Positions 6,380-40,623 of a stretch of 64,000 bases of DNA are shown piece by piece. The stretch is taken from contig NZ_JADR01000006.1 of assembly GCF_000518485.1 (NCBI RefSeq), positions 124,001-188,000 on the forward strand, written 5' to 3'. A program made the position numbers and the translations under genes. The stretch is from Olleya marilimosa CAM030. GTDB taxonomy: Bacteria; Bacteroidota; Bacteroidia; Flavobacteriales; Flavobacteriaceae. Position 1 is the first letter of the stretch. Each line of letters starts with the position of its first letter. The notes under the pieces are model-generated. The model was given only the letters and a program-made list of their open reading frames with translations. It ran no database searches and was not told the origin of the DNA.

Positions 6380-6422
6380 ACCTAATTTTGTTGCAGTATA
6401 CCAAAAGTATACAATACCTGAT

Positions 6423-6466
6423 ATGACAAATATCATATATTAATTAATCACAAAATGTAACCTTTG
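6423..6466 (+). promoter_or_regulatory. Box A plus -7 element for ccoI
   Basis: Palindrome ATGACAAATATCAT at 6423-6436, centre 6429.5. The -7-like element AACCTTTG lies at 6459-6466 (one mismatch to TAnnTTTG). The distance from centre to last base is 36.5 bp, the same as at every other box A site here. The -7 element is covered by box B at 6456-6471. Confidence 0.65.
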
Positions 6467-6471
6467 TTACA
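6427..6471 (-). promoter_or_regulatory. Box B plus -7 element for Reg1
   Basis: Palindrome TGTAACCTTTGTTACA at 6456-6471, centre 6463.5. On the minus strand a -7-like element GATATTTG (6434-6427, one mismatch) ends exactly 36.5 bp away. That -7 element lies inside box A at 6423-6436, so the two overlapping promoters cannot be used freely at the same time. Confidence 0.65.
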
Positions 6472-24666: not shown

Positions 24667-25299
24667 ATGCTAGAGCAGTTAAAACAACATTATGGTTATT
24701 TGTTTGAAGATGAGTTAATTCAAGAAATTAATAATGTTGGGACTTACAAAGATATTCCTGAAGGTTTTAAACTTATTGAAATTGGAGATTATATAAAGTC
24801 TATGCCACTTTTAGTTAGTGGAGCAATCAAGATTTTAAGAGAAGATGAAGATGGCGATGAGTTAATCCTTTATTTTATCGAGCAAGGAGACACTTGCGCA
24901 ATGACATTATCTTGTTGTTTAGGAAGCTCTAAAAGTGAAATTAGAGCCATAGCAGAAACAGATACTAAGTTAATTATGATACCAGTTGCCAAAATGGAAG
25001 AATGGCTAGGTAAATATAAGTCTTGGCAACAATTTGTGTTGCAAAGCTATCATAATCGTATGTCAGAGCTACTAGAAGCAATAGATACGATTGCATTTTT
25101 AAAAATGGACGAGCGTTTGTTTAAGTATTTAAAGGACAAAGCAATGGTTAATCATAACGAGGTTATCCATGTCACACACCAACAAATTGCTAGAGATTTA
25201 CATACCTCACGTGTCGTTATTTCAAGATTATTAAAAACACTTGAAATTGATGGAAAAATAGAACTTCATAGAAACAATATTAAGGTCTTGGACTTATAA
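24667..25299 (+). CDS. CRP/FNR-family regulator with cysteine cluster (Reg2)
   Basis: A 210-residue regulator with an N-terminal effector barrel (about 20-110), a dimer helix and a C-terminal winged helix-turn-helix. A cysteine cluster C77-A-M-T-L-S-C83-C84 lies in the barrel where other members bind a ligand, a plausible thiol or persulfide sensor (inference). The recognition helix reads S-R-V-V-I-S-R: Arg182 and Arg187 are kept, but Val183 replaces the Glu that reads TGA in CRP and FNR. A non-TGA site is therefore expected, which fits box B. A box B lies 1 bp after its stop codon, and most box B genes follow. Confidence 0.88.
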   Translation: MLEQLKQHYGYLFEDELIQEINNVGTYKDIPEGFKLIEIGDYIKSMPLLVSGAIKILREDEDGDELILYFIEQGDTCAMTLSCCLGSSKSEIRAIAETDTKLIMIPVAKMEEWLGKYKSWQQFVLQSYHNRMSELLEAIDTIAFLKMDERLFKYLKDKAMVNHNEVIHVTHQQIARDLHTSRVVISRLLKTLEIDGKIELHRNNIKVLDL

Positions 25300-25300
25300 G

Positions 25301-25345
25301 CGTAACAACTGTTACAAAGGGTGTCATATTTATATTTTAAGTTTG
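25301..25345 (+). promoter_or_regulatory. Box B plus -7 element for TauE/SafE gene
   Basis: CGTAACAACTGTTACA at 25301-25316 (centre 25308.5) and -7 element TAAGTTTG at 25338-25345; spacing 36.5 bp. It begins 1 bp after the Reg2 stop. Confidence 0.85.
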
Positions 25346-25362
25346 TATAAGATTAATAGATT

Positions 25363-26157
25363 ATGGATTTTATACAAGTAATAACATATATAGCAGCTTT
25401 TTTAATTGGTGCAGTTTTGGGATTAATAGGTGGTGGTGGATCTATTTTAACCGTTCCATTGTTAGTTTATTTTTTAGCCTATAATCCAGTTATAGCGACA
25501 GCATACTCATTGTTTGTTGTTGGATCCTCATCGCTAGTGGGTGTTATTCAAAAGCATCGCGAAGGATTAGTAGATTTTAAAACAGGTTTAGCGTTTTCAT
25601 TTCCATCCTTTATTGCTGTTTATATTTCTAGACGTTTTGTAGTACCAGCAATACCAGAAACTATAGTATCTATAGGTACATTTAGTTTGACCAAGGATAT
25701 GGCTATCATGATATTTTTTGCAATAATCATGTTTTTAGCAGCCTTTTCCATGATTAAAACTAAACAAAACACAAAAACAACTGCTACCTCACAACCTTAT
25801 TACAAGACATTTATGCAAGGTGTGGTAATTGGTATAATTACAGGATTAATTGGTGCAGGAGGAGGATTTTTATATGTTCCAGCACTAGTATTGTGGGCTG
25901 GATTAGACATGAAAAAAGCAGTAGGCACATCCCTAATTATAGTCGCAATAAACTCATTAATAGGGTTTTCAGGAGATATGCAAACCTTAGATATTGACTG
26001 GGTTTTCCTTTTATCCTTTACAGGTTTAACTATTTTTGGTATATTAATTGGAGGTTATTTTTCCAAATATATTTCTAGTAAAAAATTAAAAAAGAGCTTT
26101 GGTTGGTTTATATTAGTAATGTCCATTTATATTATATTAAAAGAGTTAGTTTTTTAA
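25363..26157 (+). CDS. TauE/SafE-family membrane transporter
   Basis: A 264-residue inner-membrane protein with about eight helices and the duplicated family motif, G-L-I-G-G-G-G-S near residue 20 and G-L-I-G-A-G-G-G near residue 165. Family members export sulfite or other organic sulfur anions. Its box B promoter and its place ahead of the persulfide dioxygenase gene point to sulfite or thiosulfate export after sulfide oxidation (inference). Confidence 0.85.
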   Translation: MDFIQVITYIAAFLIGAVLGLIGGGGSILTVPLLVYFLAYNPVIATAYSLFVVGSSSLVGVIQKHREGLVDFKTGLAFSFPSFIAVYISRRFVVPAIPETIVSIGTFSLTKDMAIMIFFAIIMFLAAFSMIKTKQNTKTTATSQPYYKTFMQGVVIGIITGLIGAGGGFLYVPALVLWAGLDMKKAVGTSLIIVAINSLIGFSGDMQTLDIDWVFLLSFTGLTIFGILIGGYFSKYISSKKLKKSFGWFILVMSIYIILKELVF

Positions 26158-26160
26158 TTA

Positions 26161-26205
26161 TGTAACTTAAGTTGCTGTAAAAATTTAAAAACATTAGTAA
26201 ATTTG
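26161..26205 (+). promoter_or_regulatory. Box B plus -7 element for MBL-rhodanese gene 1
   Basis: TGTAACTTAAGTTGCT at 26161-26176 (centre 26168.5), right half slightly degenerate, and -7 element TAAATTTG at 26198-26205; spacing 36.5 bp. The leader to the ATG at 26326 is about 115 nt and holds two related GC-rich stretches, GCCTTATGGCGAA and GCCCTAAAGGCGAA. Confidence 0.8.
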
Positions 26206-26325
26206 AAGAATTAAAAATGAATTTTTGCCTTATGGCGAATTTCTTTTAGTAAGAAAAATAGATTTAAAAGTGAACCGAGCCCTAAAGGCGAACACATTTT
26301 ACCAAAACATAAAATAGAATTGAAA

Positions 26326-27741
26326 ATGAAGATAGAGCAAATTTATACAGGTTGCTTAGCACACGCAGCCTATTATATAGAAAGTAATGGAGAGGCAGCA
26401 ATTATTGATCCTTTAAGAGAAGTACAGCCTTATATAAAAAGAGCACAAAAAGATAATGCTAAAATTAAATACATTTTTGAAACGCATTTTCATGCAGATT
26501 TTGTGTCTGGTCACTTAGATTTAAAAGAAAAAACAGGTGCTCAAATCGTATTTGGACCTACAGCAAAACCATCCTATGAAGCTATCATAGCCACAGATGG
26601 TCAGGTGTTTGAAGTTGGAGACTACAAGATAAAAGCTATCCATACTCCAGGACATACTATGGAAAGCACAACGTATCTTGTAATTGACCAAAACGGTAAA
26701 GAACATGGTATAGTTACAGGAGATACGCTATTTATTGGAGATGTTGGTCGTCCTGATTTAGCCCAAAAAATAGCTTCAGATTTAACTCAAGAAAAATTAG
26801 CTGGTTATTTATTCGATTCACTTCGTAACAAAATAATGCCATTAAGTGACGACTTAATAGTATACCCTAATCATGGTGCAGGTTCAGCTTGTGGTAAAAA
26901 CATGAGTAAAGAAACTACAGATACATTAGGGAATCAGAAAAAAGTAAATTACGCTTTGCGTGCAGACATGACCAAAGACGAATTTATAACCGAATTGTTA
27001 GATGGCTTATCAGATCCACCAGCATACTTTCCTCAAAACGTTATGATGAATATTAAAGGTTATGAAAGCTTTGATAAAGTTATGACTAAATCTCAAAAAC
27101 CATTATCTCCAAAAGCTTTTGAAGCTGCTGCTAATGATACCGAAGCTATAGTATTAGACGTGCGTCATCAAACTGAGTTTGTTAAAGGTCACATTCCACG
27201 TTCAATATTTATTGGTATAGATGGTGGATTTGCACCTTGGGTTGGTGCATTAATTGCAGATGTTAGTCAACCAATTTTATTGGTCATTCCAGAAGGAAGA
27301 GAAGAAGAGGTAATCACACGTTTATCTCGTGTTGGATTTGATAACGTTATTGGTTATTTAGAAGGTAGTTTCCAAGCATGGAAAGACGCAGGAATGGATT
27401 ACGACACGTTAACATCAATTTCTGCAGAAGAGTTTGAAAAACGATACGAAGATAACAAAGATGTTATTTTTGATGTTAGAAAGGATGGCGAGTTTACAGC
27501 CGAACATATCGATGGTGCAAAACACACTGCTTTAGATAATATTAATAGTCATTTAAGTGAGTTTCCGGAGGATAAGCCATTTTATGTGCATTGTGCTGGT
27601 GGATACAGATCTGTAATTGCTGCTTCTATATTAAAAAGTAGAGGAATTCATAATTTAATAGATGTAGCAGGTGGTTATGGTGCAATTAAAAAAACAACAA
27701 TACCAAGAACAGACTATGTTTGTCCGACCACATTAAAATAG
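26326..27741 (+). CDS. Persulfide dioxygenase-like MBL protein with two rhodanese domains
   Basis: A 471-residue cytoplasmic protein. Residues 1-240 form an ETHE1-type metallo-beta-lactamase domain with E-T-H-F-H-A-D-F and the later G-D-T-L-F-I-G-D-V-G-R-P-D-L motif of persulfide dioxygenases. Rhodanese domain 1 (about 260-350) has no catalytic cysteine. Rhodanese domain 2 (about 365-465) keeps the active Cys423 in H-C-A-G-G-Y-R-S. Such fusions oxidise persulfide to sulfite and can move sulfur to thiosulfate, as in CstB-type enzymes. The ATG at 26326 is preferred over a TTG 6 bp upstream. A strong terminator follows. Confidence 0.9.
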   Translation: MKIEQIYTGCLAHAAYYIESNGEAAIIDPLREVQPYIKRAQKDNAKIKYIFETHFHADFVSGHLDLKEKTGAQIVFGPTAKPSYEAIIATDGQVFEVGDYKIKAIHTPGHTMESTTYLVIDQNGKEHGIVTGDTLFIGDVGRPDLAQKIASDLTQEKLAGYLFDSLRNKIMPLSDDLIVYPNHGAGSACGKNMSKETTDTLGNQKKVNYALRADMTKDEFITELLDGLSDPPAYFPQNVMMNIKGYESFDKVMTKSQKPLSPKAFEAAANDTEAIVLDVRHQTEFVKGHIPRSIFIGIDGGFAPWVGALIADVSQPILLVIPEGREEEVITRLSRVGFDNVIGYLEGSFQAWKDAGMDYDTLTSISAEEFEKRYEDNKDVIFDVRKDGEFTAEHIDGAKHTALDNINSHLSEFPEDKPFYVHCAGGYRSVIAASILKSRGIHNLIDVAGGYGAIKKTTIPRTDYVCPTTLK

Positions 27742-27761
27742 TTTTTTAATCTTATAATTAT

Positions 27762-27801
27762 AAAAGCGCACATAGTAAAACAGTCTATGTGCGCTTTTTT
27801 T
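27762..27801 (+). terminator. Intrinsic terminator after MBL-rhodanese gene 1
   Basis: A 14-bp stem (AAAAGCGCACATAG / CTATGTGCGCTTTT) with a 9-nt loop and a T run. The next box B begins 2 bp later. Confidence 0.92.
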
Positions 27802-27802
27802 A

Positions 27803-27847
27803 TGTAACAAAGGTTACTATGTAAAGCCTTAAATAACCGTAACTTTA
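27803..27847 (+). promoter_or_regulatory. Box B plus -7 element for HMA-cytochrome-thioredoxin operon
   Basis: TGTAACAAAGGTTACT at 27803-27818 (centre 27810.5) and -7 element TAACTTTA at 27840-27847; spacing 36.5 bp. Confidence 0.85.
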
Positions 27848-27904
27848 TAGCATAACAAGTTATAGTTGTTTTAACCTAAAATGGCTAACTAAAAATTAAT
27901 TAAA

Positions 27905-28174
27905 ATGAACACTTCAATAGTAGTACAAAACTTAAAATGTGGTGGTTGTGCAAACACTATCACAACTAAATTAGCCCAAATAGAAAATATCACAGATATT
28001 AATATAGACGTCGATAATAGCATAGTTGCATTTAGTCATAACAATGACGCTGATGCTAAAATGGTAAAAGACAAACTTAAAACGTTAGGTTATCCAGCAA
28101 TAGACGATGATAATAACTTAGTTTCTAAAGCTAAATCCTTTGTTAGTTGTGCAACTGGTAAGCTATCTAAATAA
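27905..28174 (+). CDS. Small HMA-domain protein
   Basis: An 89-residue cytoplasmic protein with a heavy-metal-associated fold and the site C12-G-G-C15, in place of the usual M-x-C-x2-C. A C-terminal tail adds another cysteine (S-C-A-T-G). It could carry copper or, given the sulfur context, handle thiols; neither is proven. It is first of a four-gene operon with a c-type cytochrome, thioredoxin and methyltransferase. Confidence 0.8.
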   Translation: MNTSIVVQNLKCGGCANTITTKLAQIENITDINIDVDNSIVAFSHNNDADAKMVKDKLKTLGYPAIDDDNNLVSKAKSFVSCATGKLSK

Positions 28175-28183
28175 ATTATAGTT

Positions 28184-29182
28184 ATGAAAAAGGTTTACTT
28201 ACTTATAGTATTATCGTTGGTTTTGGTTAGCTGCAACAATTCTAAAAACAAAAAGCTATCTGCTTTTGACACTCAAATGAAAGCGAATAAGCATCCTGGA
28301 AAAAAGCTAATGGAAACTAACTGTTACACATGTCATAGTCCATCAGCTAGTCAAGCTGATAGGATTGGACCACCAATGATTGCTATTAAAAAGCATTACA
28401 TTGATGACAATACAACAAAAGAAGAGTTTATAGCAGATATACAATCATGGATTAAAAATCCCAATGCACAAGATGCTAAAATGCATGGAGCAGTAAAACG
28501 TTTTGGTGTTATGCCAAAGCAAGCATTTCCAGAAGAGACAATTGCTAAAATAGCAGATTATATGTTTGATTATGATATTGATCAACCAGAATGGTTTGAA
28601 AAGCATTTTAATGAAGAAAAAGGTAACCATAAAGGACAAGGAAAAGGACAAGGAAATGGTATGCACAAACAACAGGCTGAAACAAATTTTGAAGATTTAC
28701 CATACGCAGAACGTGGATTAAAATATGCCTTATCAACAAAAGCAGTTTTGGGTAAAAATTTAATGGGAACTATCCAGAAAAAAGGGACGTTAGAAGCTTT
28801 GGCGTTTTGTAATGAAAAGGCTTACCCTTTAACAGATAGCATGTCTGTAATACATAATGCATCCATAAAAAGAGTTTCCGACAAACCAAGAAATCAAAAT
28901 AATTTAGCAAATAATAAAGAATTGACGTATATTAATTCTTTTAAAAACGACATCAAAAATAATATAGAACCAAAACCAATAGTTGATCTATTAGACGATA
29001 AAGTACATGTGTATTACCCAATTACAACAAATACAATGTGCTTGCAATGTCATGGTAAACCAAATCAAGATATTAATAGACCAACCTTAAATAGTCTTGC
29101 TAATTTATACCCTAAGGATAAGGCAATAGGTTACTCTATAAATCAGGTTAGAGGTATTTGGAATATTAGTTTTGATAAATAA
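28184..29182 (+). CDS. Cytochrome c plus DUF3365-type dihaem lipoprotein
   Basis: A 332-residue exported protein with a lipoprotein signal ending at Cys17 (LVSC). An N-terminal cytochrome c domain has C47-Y-T-C50-H51. A glycine/lysine-rich linker lies near 145-165. The C-terminal half is a DUF3365 (Tll0287-like) haem-PAS domain with C286-L-Q-C289-H290. This fusion suggests a redox carrier or haem sensor in the periplasm. Its place in a box B operon beside sulfide oxidation genes is notable, but the electron partner is unknown. Confidence 0.8.
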   Translation: MKKVYLLIVLSLVLVSCNNSKNKKLSAFDTQMKANKHPGKKLMETNCYTCHSPSASQADRIGPPMIAIKKHYIDDNTTKEEFIADIQSWIKNPNAQDAKMHGAVKRFGVMPKQAFPEETIAKIADYMFDYDIDQPEWFEKHFNEEKGNHKGQGKGQGNGMHKQQAETNFEDLPYAERGLKYALSTKAVLGKNLMGTIQKKGTLEALAFCNEKAYPLTDSMSVIHNASIKRVSDKPRNQNNLANNKELTYINSFKNDIKNNIEPKPIVDLLDDKVHVYYPITTNTMCLQCHGKPNQDINRPTLNSLANLYPKDKAIGYSINQVRGIWNISFDK

Positions 29183-29195
29183 ATAATGTCAAAAA

Positions 29196-29492
29196 ATGAG
29201 TAAATTTTCAGAAATAATTAATCAAGACCAACCTGTATTAGTAGATTTTTTTGCAGAGTGGTGTGGACCTTGTAAAACTATGAGTCCGATTTTAAAGGAT
29301 GTAAAAGACAACTTAAAAGACCGTGTGTCTATTATAAAAATTGATGTAGATAAAAATCAAGAATTAGCATCTAAATATCAAGTTAGAGGTGTGCCAACGT
29401 TATTGTTATTCAAAAACGGAAAACAAGTTTGGAGACAATCAGGTGTACTACAAAAAAACGAATTAATTGATGTTATTACTGCAACATACTAA
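29196..29492 (+). CDS. trxA: Thioredoxin
   Basis: A 98-residue thioredoxin fold with the active site W-C23-G-P-C26 and the cis-proline segment R-G-V-P-T-L. There is no signal peptide, so it is cytoplasmic. Thioredoxin reduces protein persulfides and disulfides, which fits this operon. Its stop overlaps the next start by 1 bp. Other thioredoxins surely exist elsewhere in the genome, so this is probably a specialised copy. Confidence 0.88.
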   Translation: MSKFSEIINQDQPVLVDFFAEWCGPCKTMSPILKDVKDNLKDRVSIIKIDVDKNQELASKYQVRGVPTLLLFKNGKQVWRQSGVLQKNELIDVITATY

Positions 29493-30073
29493 TGGATTTA
29501 AGTGCGGATTTTTGGGATAATAGATATCAAACCAATGATATTGGTTGGGATTTAGGTACTATTTCTCCGCCATTAAAAGCCTATTTTGATCAGTTAACCA
29601 ATTTGGATTTAAAAATTTTAATTCCTGGTGGTGGTAATAGTTATGAGGCAGAATATCTTTTTAATAAAGGGTTTAAAAACGTATATGTTGTTGATTTATC
29701 TCAAACAGCTTTAGATAACTTAATAGCTAGAGTACCTGATTTTCCATCATCAAATTTAATTTTAAATAATTTTTTTGATTTAAATATGACGTTTGATCTA
29801 ATTATAGAGCAAACTTTTTTTTGTGCAATTAATCCTAGCCTAAGAGCCGATTATGCTAAAAAAGCTTCAGACATTTTAAATGTAAATGGTAAAGTTGCAG
29901 GCTTATTATTTGATGCGACTTTAAATACAACTCATCCACCTTTTGGAGGTAGTAAAAAAGAGTATTTAGGCTATTTTAACCCTTATTTTGATATAAAGAT
30001 AATGGATGCCTCTTATAACTCCATAAAGCCAAGAGCGGGAAAAGAATTGTTTTTTGTTATTCAGAAAAAATAA
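29492..30073 (+). CDS. TPMT-family SAM-dependent methyltransferase
   Basis: A 193-residue methyltransferase with the F-W-D-x-R-Y entry motif, the G-G-G-N-S SAM loop (I-P-G-G-G-N-S-Y-E) and the V-V-D-L-S acidic strand end, as in thiopurine or thiol methyltransferases. Some family members methylate hydrogen sulfide or thiols, so sulfide methylation is a reasonable inference here. It overlaps the thioredoxin stop by 1 bp (TAATG). Confidence 0.85.
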   Translation: MDLSADFWDNRYQTNDIGWDLGTISPPLKAYFDQLTNLDLKILIPGGGNSYEAEYLFNKGFKNVYVVDLSQTALDNLIARVPDFPSSNLILNNFFDLNMTFDLIIEQTFFCAINPSLRADYAKKASDILNVNGKVAGLLFDATLNTTHPPFGGSKKEYLGYFNPYFDIKIMDASYNSIKPRAGKELFFVIQKK

Positions 30074-30097
30074 AGGTCTAAAAAAGGTGTCGCAAAA

Positions 30098-30141
30098 CTG
30101 ATATATGTCATATTAATTATGAAAGTACAGTAGTAATTTTA
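30098..30141 (+). promoter_or_regulatory. Box A plus -7 element for a small membrane protein
   Basis: CTGATATATGTCAT at 30098-30111 (centre 30104.5) and -7 element TAATTTTA at 30134-30141; spacing 36.5 bp. The expected start near 30147 gives a leader of about 25 nt. Confidence 0.78.
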
Positions 30142-30171
30142 CAGTATTAAATAACGATACAATTTTACACT

Positions 30172-30321
30172 ATGATACCTCAAAACATTGCATTATATAA
30201 TTGGAACAACGGAGTAATTATGATTGCTATATTCGCAATTGTTTGCTTAGGACTTATAGGTTTATTAGTAAGCTCAATGACAAGTAGTGATAGAGATAAA
30301 GAAGAGCCTAAAGAAAGATAA
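30172..30321 (+). CDS. 49-residue single-helix membrane protein
   Basis: ATG at 30172 opens a 49-codon frame ending TAA at 30319-30321. It encodes a short polar N-terminus (M-I-P-Q-N-I), one membrane helix (about 15-35) and a charged tail rich in D, K, E and R. It has its own box A promoter upstream and a perfect terminator downstream, so it is a free-standing gene. The layout recalls small oxidase or stress subunits, but no family is recognised. Confidence 0.75.
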   Translation: MIPQNIALYNWNNGVIMIAIFAIVCLGLIGLLVSSMTSSDRDKEEPKER

Positions 30322-30347
30322 TTTAAAACAGTACACATAAAATTAAT

Positions 30348-30373
30348 AAAGCGCATATTATGCGCTTTTTTTT
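30348..30373 (+). terminator. Intrinsic terminator after the small membrane protein
   Basis: Stem AAAGCGCAT / ATGCGCTTT with a 3-nt loop and a run of T. Confidence 0.9.
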
Positions 30374-30439
30374 ATGCAAAAAGTTTTTGTTACAGCGATT
30401 GTTAACACTTATAACAGGATAGGGAATAGGTATCGTTTA

Positions 30440-30484
30440 AGTCACAAATGTTACATGTAGCCACAGCCTTGTAAAGTAATTTTA
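30440..30484 (+). promoter_or_regulatory. Box B plus -7 element for peroxiredoxin
   Basis: AGTCACAAATGTTACA at 30440-30455 (centre 30447.5), left half one mismatch in the core, and -7 element TAATTTTA at 30477-30484; spacing 36.5 bp. Confidence 0.7.
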
Positions 30485-30514
30485 TACTATAAATAATTTA
30501 AAATATTATATAAT

Positions 30515-31237
30515 ATGAATACACTAGAAACAACACCACAAGACACATTTGCAATGCCAAGAATTGGTGATAAAGCACCAGAATTTAAAGCTGTAACAAC
30601 ACAAGGAGATATCAATTACCCTTCAGATTATAAAGGGAAATGGTCAATATTATTCAGTCATCCTGCAGATTTTACGCCTGTTTGTACGTCTGAGTTTATG
30701 ACATTCGCGCATTTAGAAGAAAAGTTTGAAAAAGCTAACTGTAGCCTTATCGGTTTGTCAATTGATGGTTTATATAGTCATATTGCATGGTTAAGAACTA
30801 TTAAAGACAAAATTGAATTTAACGGAATGAAAAACATTGAAGTTAAATTTCCTTTAATCGAAGACATATCCATGGAAGTAGCCAAAAAATATGGTATGAT
30901 TCAACCAGGAGAAAGTAAAACGCAAGCGGTTAGAGCGGTCTTTTTTGTAGATCCAAACGAAACCGTTAGAGCTATTATTTACTATCCTTTAAGTTTAGGA
31001 CGTAATTTTGATGAGTTATATAGAGCCTTAATTGCAATGCAAACTTCAGACAAATTTAATGTAGCTACTCCAGCAGATTGGAATCCTGGTGACGATGTAA
31101 TTGTTTCTCCTGCTGGATCTTGTGGTGTTGCAGAAGAGCGTATGACCTCTACTGAAGATTTAGACTGTAAAGATTGGTTTTTCTGTACTAAAAAATTAGA
31201 TAAGGATTTAGTATTGGATTCAATCTTAAAAAAGTAA
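30515..31237 (+). CDS. 1-Cys/Prx6-type peroxiredoxin
   Basis: A 240-residue cytoplasmic peroxidase with the peroxidatic Cys57 in D-F-T-P-V-C-T. The long C-terminal domain marks the Prx6 subfamily. Three extra cysteines near the C-terminus (G-S-C-G, L-D-C-K, F-F-C-T) could resolve the oxidised form. It reduces peroxides and possibly persulfides. A terminator follows, so it is mainly a single gene, although readthrough to the next MBL gene is likely. Confidence 0.9.
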   Translation: MNTLETTPQDTFAMPRIGDKAPEFKAVTTQGDINYPSDYKGKWSILFSHPADFTPVCTSEFMTFAHLEEKFEKANCSLIGLSIDGLYSHIAWLRTIKDKIEFNGMKNIEVKFPLIEDISMEVAKKYGMIQPGESKTQAVRAVFFVDPNETVRAIIYYPLSLGRNFDELYRALIAMQTSDKFNVATPADWNPGDDVIVSPAGSCGVAEERMTSTEDLDCKDWFFCTKKLDKDLVLDSILKK

Positions 31238-31249
31238 GCTAATACATTT

Positions 31250-31279
31250 AAAAAGAGCCTTTTATTAAGGCTCTTTTTT
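31250..31279 (+). terminator. Intrinsic terminator after peroxiredoxin
   Basis: Stem AAAAAGAGCC / GGCTCTTTTT around a 9-nt loop with a T run. The next gene has no box of its own, so leaky termination is probable. Confidence 0.88.
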
Positions 31280-31306
31280 GTATTTTAATATCTAAATAAA
31301 AATATC

Positions 31307-32653
31307 ATGATTATTAAACAATTTCAAGATAAGCCATTAGCGCATTATTCTTATGCAATAATTAGTGATGGTAAAATGGCGCTTGTAGATCCATCAAGAG
31401 ATGTAAAACTGTATTACGATTTAGCAGAAAAACATAATGCTAAAATTATTGCTGTTTTTGAAACGCATCCACATGCCGATTTTGTGAGTAGTCATTTGCA
31501 AATTCATAAGGAAACTGGAGCAAAAATTTATGTAAGTAAATTGGTTGGCGCTAATTATCCGCATCAAACATTTGATGATGGAGATACTCTTAATTTAGGA
31601 GCGGTTACTTTTTCGGCTATTAATTCGCCAGGTCACTCGCCAGATAGTATTACAATTATTGCTAATGATGCAGATAATAATTATGCGATGTTTTCTGGAG
31701 ACACCTTATTTATTGGTGATGTTGGAAGACCAGATTTGCGTGAAAAAGCAGGTAACATGAAAGCTAAAAGAGAGGAGTTAGCTAAAAGTATGTATCATAC
31801 TATGCGTCATAAATTTAATCATTTACCAGACACAACAACTGTTTATCCAGCGCATGGTGCAGGATCGTTATGTGGTAAAAACATGAGTACAGATGCATCA
31901 AGCACTTTAGGAAGAGAACGTACTGAAAATTGGGCATTTAAAGATTTAACTGAAGATCAATTTGTAAAGCATATTTTAAATGATCAGCCTTTTATACCTT
32001 CCTATTTTGGATTTAATGTTGATATAAATAAAACAGGTGCAGATAATTTTGAATCTACATTTTGTGGCATACCTTTTTCATTTGGGATAACCAATTTTAT
32101 TAATGATGACAGTCTGATTATTGATTTTAGAAGCGCATCACAATTTAAAGAGAATCACCTAAAAGGAAGTGTTAATATTATTGCAGAAACGGAAGATGAT
32201 AAAGTAGAAACTTGGTTAGGTTCTATCGTTGCTCCTAATGAAGCGTTTCATTTAGTAATTAACTCAATTAACGACAGAAAAACAATGCTTAGTCGTATTG
32301 CTAAAATAGGTTATGAAAAGCAAATCAAATCGATTATTACGTTAGGTGCCAATACCTTTGAAACATTTAAAGTATTAGATATTGAAGATTTTAAAAAACA
32401 CCCAAATCAATATACTATTATTGATATCCGTAATGCAAGCGAGGTAGCAGAAGGTAAGATTTTTGAAACTGCGATTTCAATTCCTTTACATCAGTTAAGA
32501 GCTTCTCAAAGTCAAATTCCTACGGATAAACCTATTGTGGTGCATTGCGCAGGAGGTTACAGAAGTGCAGCAGGAAGTAGTATTATTTCAAATATAATTA
32601 AAAGAGTTCCTGTGTATGATCTTAGCGATGATGTTAAAACAATTATAGCTTAA
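31307..32653 (+). CDS. Persulfide dioxygenase-like MBL protein with two rhodanese domains, second copy
   Basis: A 448-residue paralogue of the 26326-27741 protein with the same three-domain plan. The metal motif is E-T-H-P-H-A-D-F and the G-D-T-L-F-I-G-D-V-G-R-P-D-L motif is kept. Rhodanese domain 1 (about 255-340) is degenerate and lacks the cysteine. Domain 2 keeps Cys414 in H-C-A-G-G-Y-R-S. It lies after peroxiredoxin and before cydA. Two paralogues in one island suggest different sulfur acceptors or affinities (inference). Confidence 0.88.
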   Translation: MIIKQFQDKPLAHYSYAIISDGKMALVDPSRDVKLYYDLAEKHNAKIIAVFETHPHADFVSSHLQIHKETGAKIYVSKLVGANYPHQTFDDGDTLNLGAVTFSAINSPGHSPDSITIIANDADNNYAMFSGDTLFIGDVGRPDLREKAGNMKAKREELAKSMYHTMRHKFNHLPDTTTVYPAHGAGSLCGKNMSTDASSTLGRERTENWAFKDLTEDQFVKHILNDQPFIPSYFGFNVDINKTGADNFESTFCGIPFSFGITNFINDDSLIIDFRSASQFKENHLKGSVNIIAETEDDKVETWLGSIVAPNEAFHLVINSINDRKTMLSRIAKIGYEKQIKSIITLGANTFETFKVLDIEDFKKHPNQYTIIDIRNASEVAEGKIFETAISIPLHQLRASQSQIPTDKPIVVHCAGGYRSAAGSSIISNIIKRVPVYDLSDDVKTIIA

Positions 32654-32678
32654 AAATATAAAATGAATATTAATTTTT

Positions 32679-32704
32679 AAAAGCCTCTTTTTGAGGTTTT
32701 TTTT
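32679..32704 (+). terminator. Intrinsic terminator before cydA
   Basis: Short stem CCTC / GAGG flanked by A and T runs (AAAAG before, eight T after). The T run touches the first base of the next box B. Confidence 0.7.
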
Positions 32705-32748
32705 GTAATAAAAGTTACAAAGCGTTTAAGCGTTGCGTCGTATTTTTG
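32704..32748 (+). promoter_or_regulatory. Box B plus -7 element for cydAB
   Basis: TGTAATAAAAGTTACA at 32704-32719 (centre 32711.5) and perfect -7 element TATTTTTG at 32741-32748; spacing 36.5 bp. Confidence 0.82.
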
Positions 32749-32766
32749 TATTAAAATAAACAAGCT

Positions 32767-34122
32767 ATGGATACCGAAATTTTAGCCAGAATTCAATTTG
32801 CCTTCACTATTGCCTTTCATTATATCTATCCACCTTTAAGTATTGGTATAGGTCTAATAATGGTTATTATGGAAGGGTTATATCTTAAAACAGGAAATAA
32901 ATATTATGAAGTACTAACACGTTTTTGGTTAAAAATATTTGCCATAACTTTTGGTATTGGTGTAGCTACTGGTATTATTATGGAGTTTGAGTTTGGTACC
33001 AATTGGGCAGTATATTCAAGATATGTTGGTGATATTTTTGGTAGTGCTTTAGCAGCAGAAGGCTTATTTGCATTTGGATTAGAAAGTGCTTTTTTAGGAG
33101 TATTAATTTTTGGATGGAATCGTGTGTCACCTAAAGTACATTTTATCTCTACAATTGGTGTTTTTCTTGGTTCTATGTTTTCGGCAGTTTGGATTGTTGT
33201 GGCTAATAGTTGGCAACAAACTCCTGCTGGGTATCATATTGTAGGAGAGGGATTTAATGCTAGAGCAGAAGTGACAGATTTTTGGGCAATGGTTTTTAAT
33301 CCATCTAGTGTAGATAGAATAATTCATGTTTGGCAAGGTGCCTTTTTGGCTGGTGCCTTTTTAGTATTAAGTGTGCATGCTTATTATCTACTTAAAGGTC
33401 GATATGTTGAAATTTCAAAAAAAGCATTTAAAATTGCATTAGGATTAGCAACTATTGTATCATTAACTCAGTTACTTTCAGGACATAGTTCGGCAGATGG
33501 TGTAGCTGTAAATCAGCCTGCAAAATTAGCAGCTATGGAAGGACATTATGACAAATCTGCACCTGCTGATTTATACTTGTTTGGTTGGGTTAATGATAAA
33601 ACTCAAGAGGTTACAGGTATTGGTATACCAGGAGGATTATCGTTTTTAGTGCATCAAGATTTTGAAGCGCCTATCACAGGATTAAACGCTTTTCCAGAAG
33701 CGGATAGACCAGGTCAAGTTAATGCAGTATTTCAATTTTATCATATTATGATTTCTATTGGTATGTTTTTAATTGGATTAACATTGTATGCTTCGTTTTT
33801 ATGGTGGAAAGGAACTTTATTTAAAAAACGATGGTTGTTAAAAATCTTTGCATTTTCAGTCTTACTGCCACAAATAGCAAATCAAGTCGGATGGTTTGCT
33901 GCAGAGATGGGACGTCAACCATGGATTGTGTATGGACATTTAAGAACAAACGAAGGATTTTCGCAAGAAGTGTCTTCTAATCAAATTTTATTCTCTTTAA
34001 TTTTATTTTTAGTAGTCTATACTATATTGTTTTTATTATTCCTTTATTCTGTAAATAAAAAGATAAAGCATGGTCCTTATGATGAAGCTAAAAACCCAGA
34101 TGAATTTTTAAAATACGTTTAA
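32767..34122 (+). CDS. cydA: Cytochrome bd quinol oxidase subunit I
   Basis: Membrane subunit of 451 residues that carries haems b558, b595 and d. The haem ligand His lies in the first helix (F-A-F-T-I-A-F-H). The conserved G-R-Q-P-W motif is present, and the region after helix 6 is short, as in the short Q-loop type. Cytochrome bd reduces oxygen with quinol and, unlike haem-copper oxidases, resists sulfide. Its box B control, shared with sulfide genes, makes sense on that basis. Confidence 0.95.
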   Translation: MDTEILARIQFAFTIAFHYIYPPLSIGIGLIMVIMEGLYLKTGNKYYEVLTRFWLKIFAITFGIGVATGIIMEFEFGTNWAVYSRYVGDIFGSALAAEGLFAFGLESAFLGVLIFGWNRVSPKVHFISTIGVFLGSMFSAVWIVVANSWQQTPAGYHIVGEGFNARAEVTDFWAMVFNPSSVDRIIHVWQGAFLAGAFLVLSVHAYYLLKGRYVEISKKAFKIALGLATIVSLTQLLSGHSSADGVAVNQPAKLAAMEGHYDKSAPADLYLFGWVNDKTQEVTGIGIPGGLSFLVHQDFEAPITGLNAFPEADRPGQVNAVFQFYHIMISIGMFLIGLTLYASFLWWKGTLFKKRWLLKIFAFSVLLPQIANQVGWFAAEMGRQPWIVYGHLRTNEGFSQEVSSNQILFSLILFLVVYTILFLLFLYSVNKKIKHGPYDEAKNPDEFLKYV

Positions 34123-34131
34123 TACAAAATT

Positions 34132-35169
34132 ATGGAAACAATATTAGGTATAGATTATCCAACACTTTGGTATTTAGTTGTGGGTTTATTATTTTCTGGT
34201 TACGCCATCTTAGAAGGCTTTGATTATGGCGCAGGAGCATGGCATTTATTTTTAAAAAAAGACTTAAGTCGTCGTATTGCAATTAATGCAATTGGTCCAT
34301 TATGGGATGCAAATCAAGTCTGGTTAATTATTGGTGGAGGCGCATTATTTGCTGGTTTTCCGGTTATGTATGCTACGATGTTGTCCGCCATGTATATTCC
34401 TTTCATGTTGTTTTTAATGCTTTTAGTATTAAGATCTGCTGCTATAAAATTTAGAAGTGCTGAAGAAATGACTTGGTGGCGAAAAACATGGGATATTATT
34501 TACTTTATTTCTAATACGCTAATAGCTTTTTTATTAGGTGTCGTTTTAGGAAATGTTTTACAAGGTTTTGAGTTAGGAGAAAATCTGACCTATCAAGGTG
34601 GTATTTTTTTCTCCTTTTTAAGTCCTTATGCTATTATGGTTGGGTTTACAACATTGTCTATTTTTATGACACAAGGAGCTATTTTTTTATTGCTAAAAAC
34701 TGAAGGTCGCTTACATGCTAGATTAACTTTTTTACTTAAAAAAGGAATGATTTTCTTTATTATAAGTTTTGCAGTAACATCCTTATATACTTTGACTTTT
34801 TTACACGGAGTTACAGATAAATTTAAAGAAAATCCTGTATTTTTTGTACTACCTATTTTAGCCTTTTTAGCAGTTGCTAATGTGCCTAGATTAGTGTCTA
34901 AGAAAAAATACGCTAATGCTTTAGTTTTTTCATCTTTAACAATGGCTTTTTTATTAATGTTGGTTGCTTTTCAGTTATATCCAGTATTATTACCTTCTAC
35001 CATAGATCCTAAATACAGTGTAACTATATATAATGCAGCTTCATCTCAAAAATCCTTAGGCATAATGTTAACCATTGTTGCTATTGGAGCACCATTATTA
35101 GCAGGTTATTTCTTGTTTTTATATAAAACATTTCATGGTAAAGTCAAGTTGGATGATACTAGTTATTAG
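34132..35169 (+). CDS. cydB: Cytochrome bd quinol oxidase subunit II
   Basis: A 345-residue membrane protein with about eight helices. The N-terminal signature G-F-D-Y-G-A-G-A-W and the G-P-L-W-D-A-N-Q-V-W motif are typical of CydB. It pairs with CydA and stabilises the haem site. It starts 9 bp after cydA. No separate CydX-like small subunit is seen directly after it. Confidence 0.94.
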   Translation: METILGIDYPTLWYLVVGLLFSGYAILEGFDYGAGAWHLFLKKDLSRRIAINAIGPLWDANQVWLIIGGGALFAGFPVMYATMLSAMYIPFMLFLMLLVLRSAAIKFRSAEEMTWWRKTWDIIYFISNTLIAFLLGVVLGNVLQGFELGENLTYQGGIFFSFLSPYAIMVGFTTLSIFMTQGAIFLLLKTEGRLHARLTFLLKKGMIFFIISFAVTSLYTLTFLHGVTDKFKENPVFFVLPILAFLAVANVPRLVSKKKYANALVFSSLTMAFLLMLVAFQLYPVLLPSTIDPKYSVTIYNAASSQKSLGIMLTIVAIGAPLLAGYFLFLYKTFHGKVKLDDTSY

Positions 35170-35172
35170 TTA

Positions 35173-35217
35173 TGTAACATAAGTAGCTGTACAGATTTTA
35201 GAGATGTAATATCTTTA
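35173..35217 (+). promoter_or_regulatory. Box B plus -7 element for SQR
   Basis: TGTAACATAAGTAGCT at 35173-35188 (centre 35180.5), right half degenerate as at 26161, and -7 element TATCTTTA at 35210-35217; spacing 36.5 bp. It begins 3 bp after the cydB stop. Confidence 0.75.
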
Positions 35218-35234
35218 TTAAAAATTAACAGTTT

Positions 35235-36692
35235 ATGTCTAAAATAGTCATTTTAGGAGCTGGAATTTCTGGTCATGTAGCAGCTTCACATTTACGTAGA
35301 AAACTATCCAAAGACCATGAAGTAGTCGTAGTGTCTCCTAACAGTAATTACCAATGGATTCCGTCTAATATTTGGGTTGGAATTGGTAGAATGAAATCAA
35401 ATAAAATCCTATTCCCATTAGCGCCTTTGTATAAAAAGAAAGGTATTGGATACAAACAAGCCAAAGCAATTTCGTTTTTTCCTGAAGGCGATAAAACAGA
35501 AGAAAAACCTTATGTTTTAGCAGAGTATGTCACAGGAGCTAGTAAAGGTCAACAGGAAAAAATAACATACGATTATTTAATTAATGCCACAGGTCCAAAA
35601 TTAAATTTTGAAGCTACAGAAGGCTTAATTCCTGGACAAAATAAAATCTATTCTGTTTGTACATATACACATGCAGACCATGCTTGGGAAGCTTTAAATG
35701 AAGTCATTCAGCAAATGAAAGCTGGTAAAAAAATGAAAATTCTAATAGGTACAGGTCACGCCAAATCAACTTGTCAAGGAGCTGCTTTTGAATATATTTT
35801 AAATGTAGAACAAGAATTGCGTAAACATAAAGTACGAGATATGGCTGAAGTGACTTGGATTTCTAACGAATATCAATTAGGCGATTTTGGTATGGATGGT
35901 ATGTTGTTAAGCTATGGAAGCATGACGATGAAATCTCATGAAATGGTTGAAATGATTTTTGAAGACAGAGACATTAAATGGATTCTTGGAGCTGGTGTTA
36001 ATAAAATTGAAGATGGCGTAGCGCATTACGAAACACTAGAAGGAGAATTTAAATCTGAAACCTATGATTTTGCAATGTTAATTCCTTCGTTTTCTGGTCA
36101 TGGTTTTAAAGCTTATGATAAAAATGAAAATGACATCACAGAAAAACTCTTTAAAGGGTTTATGATTGTAGATGCTGATTATACACCAAAACCATACGAA
36201 AAATGGTCTGTAAAAGATTGGCCAGAAACGTATCAAAATCCGAGTTATAAAAACATTTTCGCACCAGGAATTGCATTTGCGCCACCACATGCCATTTCTA
36301 AACCAAGAACAAGTAAAAACGGAACAGTTATTTCACCAGCTCCACCACGTACAGGAATGCCATCTGGTATTACCGCAAAATTGGTTGCAGATAATATTAT
36401 AGATTCTATAATATCCGGAAAAGAGTCTTTAAACCATAAGGGAAGTTTAGGTAATATGGGAGCAGCTTGTATTGCTTCTGCTGGATATGGAATGACACAA
36501 GGCAGTGGTGTTAGTATAACAACCTATCCCATTGTTCCAGATTACGAAAAATATCCTAAAACACAAGGTAGACAATTAGGGAAAACCTTCGGAGAAATAG
36601 GTTTAGCAGGTCATTGGTTAAAATTGGCTTTACATTACGCATTTATTTATAAAGCAAAAATGCGACCATTTTGGTGGTTGATTCCAGAATAG
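35235..36692 (+). CDS. sqr: Sulfide:quinone oxidoreductase-like flavoprotein
   Basis: A 485-residue FAD protein with the N-terminal dinucleotide loop G-A-G-I-S-G-H and a later N-A-T-G-P-K motif. Cysteines at the positions expected for the sulfide site appear in S-V-C-T-Y-T and K-S-T-C-Q-G-A-A, with another in A-A-C-I-A-S. A C-terminal amphipathic segment would bind the membrane. It would oxidise sulfide to persulfide or polysulfide and feed electrons to quinone, upstream of the MBL-rhodanese enzymes and alongside cytochrome bd. The SQR subtype cannot be fixed from reading alone. Confidence 0.82.
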   Translation: MSKIVILGAGISGHVAASHLRRKLSKDHEVVVVSPNSNYQWIPSNIWVGIGRMKSNKILFPLAPLYKKKGIGYKQAKAISFFPEGDKTEEKPYVLAEYVTGASKGQQEKITYDYLINATGPKLNFEATEGLIPGQNKIYSVCTYTHADHAWEALNEVIQQMKAGKKMKILIGTGHAKSTCQGAAFEYILNVEQELRKHKVRDMAEVTWISNEYQLGDFGMDGMLLSYGSMTMKSHEMVEMIFEDRDIKWILGAGVNKIEDGVAHYETLEGEFKSETYDFAMLIPSFSGHGFKAYDKNENDITEKLFKGFMIVDADYTPKPYEKWSVKDWPETYQNPSYKNIFAPGIAFAPPHAISKPRTSKNGTVISPAPPRTGMPSGITAKLVADNIIDSIISGKESLNHKGSLGNMGAACIASAGYGMTQGSGVSITTYPIVPDYEKYPKTQGRQLGKTFGEIGLAGHWLKLALHYAFIYKAKMRPFWWLIPE

Positions 36693-36738
36693 AAATCAAA
36701 CTAAAACAAGTTGATTCCTAATTAAAAATATAAATAGT

Positions 36739-36876
36739 ATGACACAAAGAATATCAAAATATCAAAGATTTAAAATGATGAATCCTATCATTCAGTTTTT
36801 CAAATTCATTTATTTAAGTATAAAAATAATGATTGTTGTAGCTGGAGGACATGGAGGCACAAGAAAAGTTAACTGA
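36739..36876 (+). CDS. 45-residue basic protein with hydrophobic segment
   Basis: ATG at 36739 opens a 45-codon frame ending TGA at 36874-36876. The N-terminus is basic (S-K-Y-Q-R-F-K), a hydrophobic stretch follows (about 18-35), and the C-terminus reads A-G-G-H-G-G-T-R-K. It lies 46 bp after sqr with no terminator between, and a terminator begins at its stop, so it is probably the last gene of the sqr unit. No family is recognised. Confidence 0.6.
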   Translation: MTQRISKYQRFKMMNPIIQFFKFIYLSIKIMIVVAGGHGGTRKVN

Positions 36877-36894
36877 TGTGGTTATCAGTTTTTT
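36871..36894 (+). terminator. Intrinsic terminator of the sqr unit
   Basis: Stem AACTGAT / ATCAGTT with a GTGGT-type loop and six T; it overlaps the stop codon of the small gene. Confidence 0.85.
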
Positions 36895-36905
36895 GATTGG
36901 TTGTG

Positions 36906-36941
36906 AAAAAGGCATTTATAAGCAATTATAAGTGTCTTTTT
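36906..36941. terminator. Bidirectional hairpin between convergent genes
   Basis: A 16-bp imperfect stem with G-U pairs, AAAAAGGCATTTATAA against TTATAAGTGTCTTTTT, around GCAA. It can end the minus-strand gene 36959-37957 and back up the + terminator. Confidence 0.75.
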
Positions 36942-36958
36942 CTATTGTATCTAGCGTA

Positions 36959-37957
36959 TTAATTTCCTTTTATACGTTGCCATAATTCGGTTAACAGCTT
37001 TTTACCATCACGACTATCTTTAGGTGCTTCATTAAAAGTAACTTTACCTGAAGCATCAATATCTAACCTATATTTAAACACGAAATTTTCAGATTTAGGT
37101 GTTAGACTTAGTAATCCAAATCTTAAATCGTTAAAATATAATGAGTCATTCTGTTTTGTAATTGTGTACCAACCTTCGGTAATTGCAATCATACGTTTTA
37201 CGCTTTCATCTTCAATCAAATGTCCTAACAACTCATGGTTTTTGGGATAGCTTTCAAAAGTAATGGGTTGGCTATCAAAAAATGAATAATTACCAAGTAA
37301 ATAAGCTTCTTCAGTTTGCACATTAGCACTCCAAAGTATGGTATTTAAAGGCGAAGGTCTAGTGTCAATATCTAAATACGCTATGTTTTGTGTTTCTAAA
37401 GCAGCTTCAAATTTAGTATAGGAAATCCATTTTAAAACTAAGGTTAATGCCAAATAAGAGGTACTTATTAGTAATCCCATTGTATTGTAAAAACCACGTT
37501 TTGTAGAAGTACGTTTTTGTCGCATTGCCAAAATTAAAAACACCAAAAAAGGGATTGTGTACAATGGATCAATTACAAATATGTTTTTAAAAGCTAATCG
37601 TAAATCAAAAGGCCAAAACAATTGCGTTCCCCAAGTAGTATGTGCATCTAAAATAGGATGCGTCACAAACGACCAAAAGAATAACCACGACCAATCCTTA
37701 AAATTTTTGTAGGTGTCATAACGCGATACCAACCATCCAAATATGGGAGCAAATAATACCGAAAACACAATAGAATGTGTAAATCCACGATGTGTAGCAA
37801 GTGCAGAAACAGTATCTGTAAAGTACGAAGCAAACACATCAAAATCAGGAATAGTTCCAGCTATAGCTCCATAAAGCATCGCTTTATTACCAACTTTTTT
37901 GCCTAAAACAACTTCTCCAACAGCTGCTCCTAATACTATTTGTGTTAATGAATCCAT
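36959..37957 (-). CDS. YdjM-like membrane metal-dependent hydrolase
   Basis: A 332-residue protein of the YdjM/DUF457 group: the start M-D-S-L-T-Q-I-V-L-G-A, then I-P-D-F-D and T-H-R-G-F-T-H-S provide the metal-binding histidines and aspartates, with further D-A-H-T in the middle. Four or more membrane helices lie in the first 190 residues, and a soluble C-terminal domain follows. The substrate is unknown (some members act on lipids). It has its own promoter and is unrelated to the sulfur island in orientation. Confidence 0.82.
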   Translation of the reverse strand: MDSLTQIVLGAAVGEVVLGKKVGNKAMLYGAIAGTIPDFDVFASYFTDTVSALATHRGFTHSIVFSVLFAPIFGWLVSRYDTYKNFKDWSWLFFWSFVTHPILDAHTTWGTQLFWPFDLRLAFKNIFVIDPLYTIPFLVFLILAMRQKRTSTKRGFYNTMGLLISTSYLALTLVLKWISYTKFEAALETQNIAYLDIDTRPSPLNTILWSANVQTEEAYLLGNYSFFDSQPITFESYPKNHELLGHLIEDESVKRMIAITEGWYTITKQNDSLYFNDLRFGLLSLTPKSENFVFKYRLDIDASGKVTFNEAPKDSRDGKKLLTELWQRIKGN

Positions 37958-37965
37958 ATAGTTTA

Positions 37966-37973
37966 CAAAAGTA
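37966..37973 (-). promoter_or_regulatory. -7 element for the YdjM-like gene
   Basis: On the minus strand TACTTTTG lies 8-15 bp upstream of the start codon, giving an almost leaderless transcript. No box A or B lies at the regulator position. Confidence 0.55.
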
Positions 37974-38027
37974 AGTGTTAGCGTTAAATTTACAACAATA
38001 CTTTATCTTTAACTTATCATGCTACTT

Positions 38028-38072
38028 GGTAACTTTTGTTACTGACTTCGGTGTTTATCTAACGTACATTTG
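38028..38072 (+). promoter_or_regulatory. Box B plus -7 element for the efflux operon
   Basis: GGTAACTTTTGTTACT at 38028-38043 (centre 38035.5) and perfect -7 element TACATTTG at 38065-38072; spacing 36.5 bp. Confidence 0.85.
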
Positions 38073-38091
38073 TACTGTAAATTAATAATTG

Positions 38092-39399: not shown

Positions 39400-39407
39400 T
39401 TTTTAAG

Positions 39408-40484: not shown

Positions 40485-40494
40485 CTAATAAGTT

Positions 40495-40606
40495 GCGTTA
40501 AGGATAGAAGAGGAAATCCTTTTTACGTCAGTTCGAGTGAATTTGCCTAAGCAAATTTGTACCGAGAACAAGTAAAAAGATTGTAACGGATAGCCTGTTA
40601 AAACGC
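40495..40606 (+). repeat. Structured intergenic element inside the efflux operon
   Basis: The 139-bp gap between adaptor and pump genes holds nested inverted repeats: an outer GCGTTAAGG pairing with CCTGTTAAAACGC, an inner AAGGAT / ATCCTT, and a central hairpin ATTTGC-CTAA-GCAAAT flanked by GTTC and GAAC. The phrase GTTCGAGTGA ... ACCGAGAAC resembles dispersed intergenic repeats common in this bacterial family. Only this copy is seen in the window. It may tune mRNA stability or pump level. Confidence 0.5.
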
Positions 40607-40623
40607 CCAAAATAAAAATTCAA

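Follow-up and report, generated by a model that had tools for sequence, protein, structure and literature searches.

Genes of sulfide and persulfide oxidation are known to be controlled by the persulfide-responsive regulators CstR, SqrR/BigR/YgaV and FisR, the last a sigma-54 activator. These regulators all stand outside the CRP/FNR superfamily, and CstR and SqrR bear the word repressor in their names. Marine Flavobacteriia play a large part in breaking down algal matter, and in the open-access literature that we searched we found neither a description of how they control sulfide oxidation nor, for Bacteroidota as a whole, any CRP/FNR protein that regulates this process. CstR, which is CsoR-like, and SqrR, of the ArsR family, are presented in one paper as reactive sulfur sensors using cysteine thiols, and in it "Crp" occurs twice, in references only, and "FNR", "Bacteroidetes" and "Flavobacteri" do not occur (PMC9774590). 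Here we analyze a stretch of 64,000 nucleotides from Olleya marilimosa CAM030 (the window; the host genome has 3,343,709 bases in 27 contigs), in which seven promoters share a 16-bp palindrome, TGTAAC-N4-GTTACA, that we call Box B, at one fixed distance from a TAnnTTTR -7 element. These promoters precede genes devoted mainly to the disposal of sulfide and sulfane sulfur and very probably constitute the regulon of Reg2, a CRP/FNR-superfamily protein encoded just before the first of them.

An earlier note on this DNA had listed eight such promoters. All eight palindromes were found, with zero to three half-site mismatches, and at 25301, 26161, 27803, 30440, 32704, 35173 and 38028 a perfect -7 element on the + strand ends 36.5 bp past the centre of the palindrome (all distances below run from the centre to the last -7 base); the eighth site, at 6456, has no such element at 36.5 bp on that strand and is treated apart. 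The units proposed in the note as one regulon with a sulfide and persulfide content were otherwise retained, with the refinement that a small reading frame stands ahead of the cytochrome in the cytochrome/thioredoxin unit. The features are as follows.

24667..25299, + strand: Reg2, CRP/FNR-superfamily protein of 210 amino acids, with the recognition helix TSRVVISRLL and the cysteines Cys77, Cys83 and Cys84.
25301..25316, + strand: Box B CGTAACAACTGTTACA, -7 element TAAGTTTG at 25338-25345; precedes TauE.
25363..26157, + strand: TauE/SafE-type permease (Pfam PF01925, 5e-44).
26161..26176, + strand: Box B TGTAACTTAAGTTGCT, -7 element TAAATTTG at 26198-26205; precedes MBL-rhodanese 1.
26320..27741, + strand: MBL-rhodanese 1, metallo-beta-lactamase plus rhodanese (Pfam; PDB 3tp9, 1.6e-71, and 3r2u, 1.1e-54).
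27803..27818, + strand: Box B TGTAACAAAGGTTACT, -7 element TAACTTTA at 27840-27847; precedes the HMA reading frame, cytochrome c, thioredoxin and the TPMT-like protein.
27905..28174, + strand: open reading frame of 89 amino acids with a heavy-metal-associated (HMA) domain (Pfam PF00403, 1.2e-9), leading the 27803 unit.
28184..30073, + strand: cytochrome c/Tll0287-like protein, thioredoxin and TPMT-like methyltransferase (Pfam).
30440..30455, + strand: Box B AGTCACAAATGTTACA, -7 element TAATTTTA at 30477-30484; precedes peroxiredoxin and MBL-rhodanese 2.
30515..32653, + strand: peroxiredoxin (30515-31237) and MBL-rhodanese 2 (31307-32653).
32704..32719, + strand: Box B TGTAATAAAAGTTACA, -7 element TATTTTTG at 32741-32748; precedes cytochrome bd.
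32767..35169, + strand: CydA and CydB, cytochrome bd oxidase (Pfam, 1.3e-162 and 6.1e-90).
35173..35188, + strand: Box B TGTAACATAAGTAGCT, with three mismatches, -7 element TATCTTTA at 35210-35217; precedes SQR.
35235..36692, + strand: sulfide:quinone oxidoreductase-like flavoprotein (SQR; phmmer match to the PDB SQR 3sz0, 5.7e-32).
38028..38043, + strand: Box B GGTAACTTTTGTTACT, -7 element TACATTTG at 38065-38072; precedes the OEP-HlyD-RND operon.
38089..43818, + strand: outer-membrane factor (OEP), CusB/HlyD-type adaptor and RND pump.

The central N4 differs among the seven sites. TauE, CydAB, peroxiredoxin, thioredoxin, HMA and RND owe their identities to Pfam calls, and the SQR-like protein scores only 55 bits with the NCBIfam model of SQR type III, whose cut-off is 525. 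MBL-rhodanese 1 would be a CstB-like persulfide dioxygenase/sulfurtransferase, PDB 3r2u being presumably the CstB of Staphylococcus aureus. MBL-rhodanese 2, for which no separate box is listed, is probably part of the peroxiredoxin operon.

Could the equal spacing be due to chance, or to selection by a reader among many loose palindromes? The palindrome alone would allow it: with up to three mismatches the window has 64 copies where 53.5 are expected, and 64 or more turn up in 9 of 100 shuffles, a count so close to chance that we dropped it as evidence. The same was done for the looser pairs (box with up to three mismatches, -7 element with up to one), of which there are 9 at 36.5 bp against a shuffle mean of 3.1 and maximum of 10, with up to 8 at other spacings; one loose pair, at 12908, is treated as background. 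Since these limits give counts within the range of shuffled sequence, strictness matters, and the evidence resides in the spacing. When the -7 element must be perfect and the box may still have up to three mismatches, 7 pairs are found at 36.5 bp against a mean of 0.29 and a maximum of 3 in 300 shuffles of the window, and against a mean of 0.34 and a maximum of 2 at the other 59 spacings. The comparison with shuffled sequence, by which the earlier note had proposed to challenge its own claim of unlikely equal spacing, was thus run on the window in place of the whole genome, and under strict limits it leaves that claim standing. The relatives lead to the same picture. We took the best 80 loci of 212 Reg2-encoding stretches (1.52 Mb in total), which, having been picked by Reg2, are silent on the remainder of their genomes, and scanned them at spacings from 15.5 to 74.5 bp for boxes with up to two mismatches and a perfect -7 element. 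They hold 203 pairs at 36.5 bp, 19 at 35.5 bp and 0 to 10 at each of the other 58 spacings, and the sites stand at orthologous genes; a reversed box gives 1 pair at 36.5 bp and its own largest value, 12, at 44.5 bp. Chance or selection is accordingly an explanation to which we give hardly any credit. The conserved promoter family is real, and its members almost certainly form one regulon.

The distance also fixes the position of the box relative to the predicted transcription starts. The sigma-A -7 consensus of Flavobacterium psychrophilum, TAnnTTTG, occupies -12 to -5 (PMC9723704), so that the additional 36.5 bp place the centre of Box B at -41.5, the class II position that the earlier note had predicted. 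Among 133 non-redundant sites, no -33 element is conserved in the spacer between box and -7 element, which agrees with the expectation that activator-dependent promoters lack one.

Conservation among the relatives was followed gene by gene, excluding genes with less than 250 bp upstream and matches beginning after the first 25 residues. A box leads peroxiredoxin in 14/14 cases, SQR in 11/11, TauE in 45/48, MBL-rhodanese 1 in 60/70 and OEP in 5/6. Few boxes precede thioredoxin (1/36), radical SAM (3/14) or cytochrome c/Tll (6/29), in the last case probably because a small gene often stands upstream of the cytochrome, and none precedes CydB (0/8), HlyD (0/6), RND (0/11), TPMT (0/26), MBL-rhodanese 2 (0/3), M90 (0/15), orf23085 (0/20) or YdjM (0/1). 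Reg2 itself is box-led in only 2 of the 80 loci, and autoregulation as a rule was discarded. A further 97 sites precede genes without a homologue in the window (89 with an open reading frame, 8 without; 19 clusters), and a Pfam scan of 9 representatives of the 19 clusters added sulphur transport (Sulf_transp), rhodanese, NrfD, sulfate permease, DsrE, SoxA/TsdA cytochrome and Pyr_redox_2 families, along with DUF983 and fatty acid hydroxylase.

Reg2 was assigned to the CRP/FNR superfamily through PF00027 (cNMP_binding, 1.8e-9) and PF13545 (HTH_Crp_2, 1.3e-8), and its AlphaFold2 model (predicted local distance difference test, pLDDT, of 89) has the CRP fold, the top Foldseek matches being PDB 3dv8 (TMq 0.82) and CAP 1zrf (TMq 0.77). 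It is 88-94% identical to the Reg2 of four Olleya records (L031, L032, L034 and L050). With the CRP of Escherichia coli at its class II promoters, the system shares superfamily, fold and a box centred at -41.5, and Arg182 and Arg187 of the Reg2 helix align with Arg180 and Arg185 of CRP. It differs in the box, TGTAAC instead of TGTGA, in Val183 where CRP has Glu181, and in the Bacteroidota -7 element TAnnTTTG that stands in place of a -10 box; with the NCBIfam model of CRP, the cAMP-activated regulator, Reg2 reaches only 58.3 bits (cut-off 266). The cyanobacterial NtcA, of the same superfamily, is the second-best NCBIfam match (50.4 bits, cut-off 244.95), its helix also has valine at the position of CRP Glu181, and the core of Box B fits the NtcA box GTA-N8-TAC, but NtcA controls nitrogen genes and the Box B genes are mainly sulfur genes. 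FNR, FixK and Reg1-type proteins again belong to the superfamily, and a promoter of this type in the window has the same class II distance, but the FNR-type box TTGAT-N4-ATCAA differs from Box B; Reg2 scores 22.7 bits with the FNR model (cut-off 228) and its cysteines are found only at 77, 83 and 84, with none N-terminal. In three loci (L126, L127 and L130), homologues with the helix ITREAVSRV are found beside OEP-HlyD-RND operons together with a different box, of the TGTAACTTTCATCACT type, at the 36.5-bp spacing, and may represent a sister regulator whose code has shifted.

A second regulator of the superfamily is encoded in the window and had to be weighed against Reg2.

5702..6436, - strand: Reg1, FNR-like regulator (Pfam; 98.8 bits with the NCBIfam model of Fnr, which has its cut-off at 228).

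If Reg1, or a general CRP, were to bind Box B, the regulon would answer to oxygen limitation and not to sulfide. FNR often controls cytochrome bd and cbb3 genes, and Reg1 shares the window with the boxes. We compare both proteins across 196 genomes of the order (homologue cut-offs E 1e-10 for Reg2 and E 1e-20 for Reg1), in which the strict pattern occurs in 54 genomes, a Reg2 homologue in 101 and a Reg1 homologue in 92. Reg2 accompanies the box in 52 of the 54 box genomes against 49 of the 142 without a box (p 1.6e-16), and the two box genomes lacking it (G075 and G100) are 54% and 59% complete. Reg1 correlates with the box as well (44/54, p 2.5e-9), but eight box genomes have Reg2 and no Reg1 match, none has Reg1 without Reg2, and the box is present in 0/8 of the Reg1-only genomes and 8/17 of the Reg2-only genomes. 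In eight small genomes (G011, G084, G136, G036, G024, G015, G027 and G054) the box is found just downstream of Reg2. Among 148 genomes of the phylum (Reg2 cut-off E 1e-30), 37 of the 41 box genomes have a homologue, the exceptions being G228, G231, G264 and G274, which are the 4 box genomes among the 91 genomes without one. The reversed pattern matches 13 of the 148, so we place more weight on the seven genomes in which the box adjoins a Reg2 homologue (G211, G227, G243, G263, G286, G300 and G331).

The half-sites themselves also vary with Reg2. Val183 aligns with the position of Glu181 in the recognition helix of CRP, and in the CRP code Glu181 goes with the G of TGTGA. We collected with the degenerate pattern TGTRAC-N4-GTYAC, at the exact spacing, 65 sites (none with the reversed control), one of which (G144) has no assigned residue 183; the residue was determined in 81 of the 101 genomes with a Reg2 homologue, from the best match only if there were several. 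The 42 sites of V183 genomes comprise 33 A/A, 7 mixed and 2 G/G half-site pairs, and the 22 sites of E183 genomes 2 A/A, 19 mixed A/G and 1 G/G (p 9e-8, a value that overstates independence because a large share of the E183 sites resemble orthologous copies of a single promoter). Within one genus the counts are 10 A/A and no mixed pair for V, against 1 A/A and 18 mixed for E, and the shift agrees in direction with the CRP code. This covariation speaks against Reg1 as the binder, and the Reg1/ccoI promoter has a different box (ATGAY-N4-RTCAT); we thus consider control of Box B by Reg1 or a general CRP improbable. The co-occurrence and the covariation together argue for Reg2, which the earlier note had named, and its binding to Box B appears highly likely from these comparisons of sequence.

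The palindrome at 6456 found another explanation, and the note's inclusion of it in the Box B family was rejected.

6423..6436, + strand: FNR-like box ATGACAAATATCAT, upstream of ccoI, excluded from the Box B regulon.
6456..6471, + strand: palindrome TGTAACCTTTGTTACA, rejected as Box B; holds the probable ccoI -7 element AACCTTTG at 6459-6466.

On the minus strand, GATATTTG could pass for a -7 element with one mismatch, and this octamer lies in the conserved FNR-like palindrome. Being the complement of that box, at the mirror image of the 36.5-bp distance, it is easily misread. The 16 bases at 6456, N4 included, are identical in 9 of 10 genomes of the genus, those with Reg1 (our own included), and when 20 further genomes from the family are compared, a TGTAAC palindrome with up to one mismatch is present there in only 2. 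A match to the FNR-like box (up to two mismatches, counted without a shuffle control) is found in the Reg1/ccoI stretch of all 20, one of them weak, and in 15 it stands 36.5 bp before a ccoI-facing xAnnTTTG with up to one mismatch; the distance is 35.5 bp in one genome and 37.5 bp in another, and the remaining 3 have no such pair at these distances. One of the 20 (G133) has a perfect -7 element at 36.5 bp on the Reg1 side too. From the identical 16 bases and the FNR-like box 36.5 bp before a ccoI-facing -7 element, it seems probable that ccoI has its -7 element at the TTTG within TGTAACCTTTGTTACA. Positions 6423-6466 would thus hold a weak -7 element (xAnnTTTG) and a second class of activator at the same class II distance, with Reg1 as the probable binder of the 6423-6436 box. 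The listed start of Reg1 may be too far upstream: the FNR-like box overlaps that start codon, and for this reason the internal Met20 (MSKCEHC) looks like the true start.

As for the signal, the gene content of the regulon suggests that it is probably of the sulfide family. In the mechanism that we propose, Reg2, without the iron-sulfur signature of FNR, would bind TGTAAC-N4-GTTACA at -41.5 on the seven promoters and activate sigma-A RNA polymerase as a class II activator, compensating for the missing -33 element. SQR would convert sulfide to persulfide, the MBL-rhodanese proteins would oxidise and transfer the persulfide sulfur, and TauE would export the product; thioredoxin and peroxiredoxin would deal with thiol damage, the RND/HMA part with metals, and cytochrome bd would serve as a sulfide-tolerant terminal oxidase. 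The inducer would probably be sulfane sulfur (persulfide or polysulfide) or a thiol-redox change akin to it. It would be sensed by Cys77, together with Cys83/Cys84 in proteins that have them, in the part of the molecule where CRP accommodates cAMP. The three cysteines are invariant in 81 close Reg2 sequences. In a wider alignment (77 of 121 available sequences, selected for spread) nine positions are invariant, Cys77 among them, and Cys83 and Cys84 vary, box genomes included. The Cys77 segment aligns with the cyclic-nucleotide loop of CRP, where the model is least certain (mean pLDDT 75 for residues 71-80 and 68 for residues 81-90). Cys77 is the foremost candidate thiol sensor, and that it senses persulfide is a tentative proposal. 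PDB 3dv8, the closest solved relative (a structural-genomics Crp/Fnr protein of Eubacterium rectale), has cysteines in the columns of Cys77 and Cys83, so that this site may not be confined to Bacteroidota.

Alternatively, Reg2 could control Box B and yet answer to a signal other than sulfane sulfur, such as stress of the nitrosative, peroxide, copper/thiol or redox kind; the sulfur genes would then belong to a general defence of thiols. The regulon's genes for peroxiredoxin, thioredoxin, HMA and a CusB-type RND system would suit such a role, and Cys83 and Cys84 are not universal. Yet the most constant targets are peroxiredoxin, SQR, TauE and MBL-rhodanese, three of them sulfur genes, and the families added by the relatives, from Sulf_transp to the SoxA/TsdA cytochrome, speak for sulfur again. 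Another signal thus seems to us rather unlikely, and the complete account, a class II regulon of Reg2 for sulfide and sulfane-sulfur disposal with its signal included, is one that we favour with some reserve.

The whole host genome, window included, was searched with a 45-base pattern of box, spacer and -7 element. With up to two mismatches it gives 13 matches, 7 of them in the window (six of the seven Box B sites and 6456, the 27803 site having no mismatch to the strict pattern and the 35173 site three) and 6 outside; with up to three mismatches there are 36 matches against 27 for the reversed pattern. Three distal sites (C6:30994, C6:158953 and C7:98990) precede plausible genes, the proteins being of the Thioredoxin_9, fatty acid hydroxylase and DUF983 families. 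The others are C1:45037, within an open frame, C1:530250, at a start codon and with an imperfect -7 element, and C4:117161. The sites at C6:158953 and C7:98990 (loci L012 and L013), both on the minus strand, are those before the fatty acid hydroxylase and DUF983 genes, and in Maribacter loci, too, boxes precede genes of these two Pfam families. At C2:13330 (locus L021) a good box at the 35.5-bp spacing precedes an unassigned, His-rich open reading frame of 129 amino acids.

Several results weigh against a sulfide regulon of Reg2. The 35173 site, before SQR, departs from the palindrome by three mismatches, and CydA is preceded by a box in only 9 of 15 loci. The reversed pattern matches 16 of the 196 genomes of the order besides the 13 of the phylum; as this control is not empty, some of the single matches, particularly those outside the order, are due to chance. 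Of the 101 genomes with a Reg2 homologue, 49 have no strict box, and among the 29 of these in which residue 183 is known, 17 have E and 12 have V. The E183 sites come mostly from orthologous promoters of one genus and represent few independent events. The box-led DUF983 and fatty acid hydroxylase families have no clear sulfur role. Finally, some Reg2 homologues of box genomes lack Cys83 and Cys84, so that a dithiol mechanism is not general.

The analysis yields a named candidate regulator together with a box of 16 bp in constant geometry and a set of predicted target families. The FNR-like ccoI promoter, with its equal distance, suggests that the activators of this superfamily in these bacteria share the 36.5 bp between the centre of their site and the -7 element, and such a class II rule would aid the annotation of their promoters. 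It is conceivable, and we put it forward tentatively, that Reg2 is the founding member of a class of sulfane-sulfur sensors that spans Bacteroidota and uses the CRP fold. The region of the cAMP pocket would have turned into a cysteine site, residue 183 would switch between GTAAC and mixed GTAAC/GTGAC half-sites, and the protein would act as an activator, unlike CstR and SqrR, which are named as repressors. If Cys77 does act as the sensor, the CRP superfamily would gain a reactive-sulfur branch.

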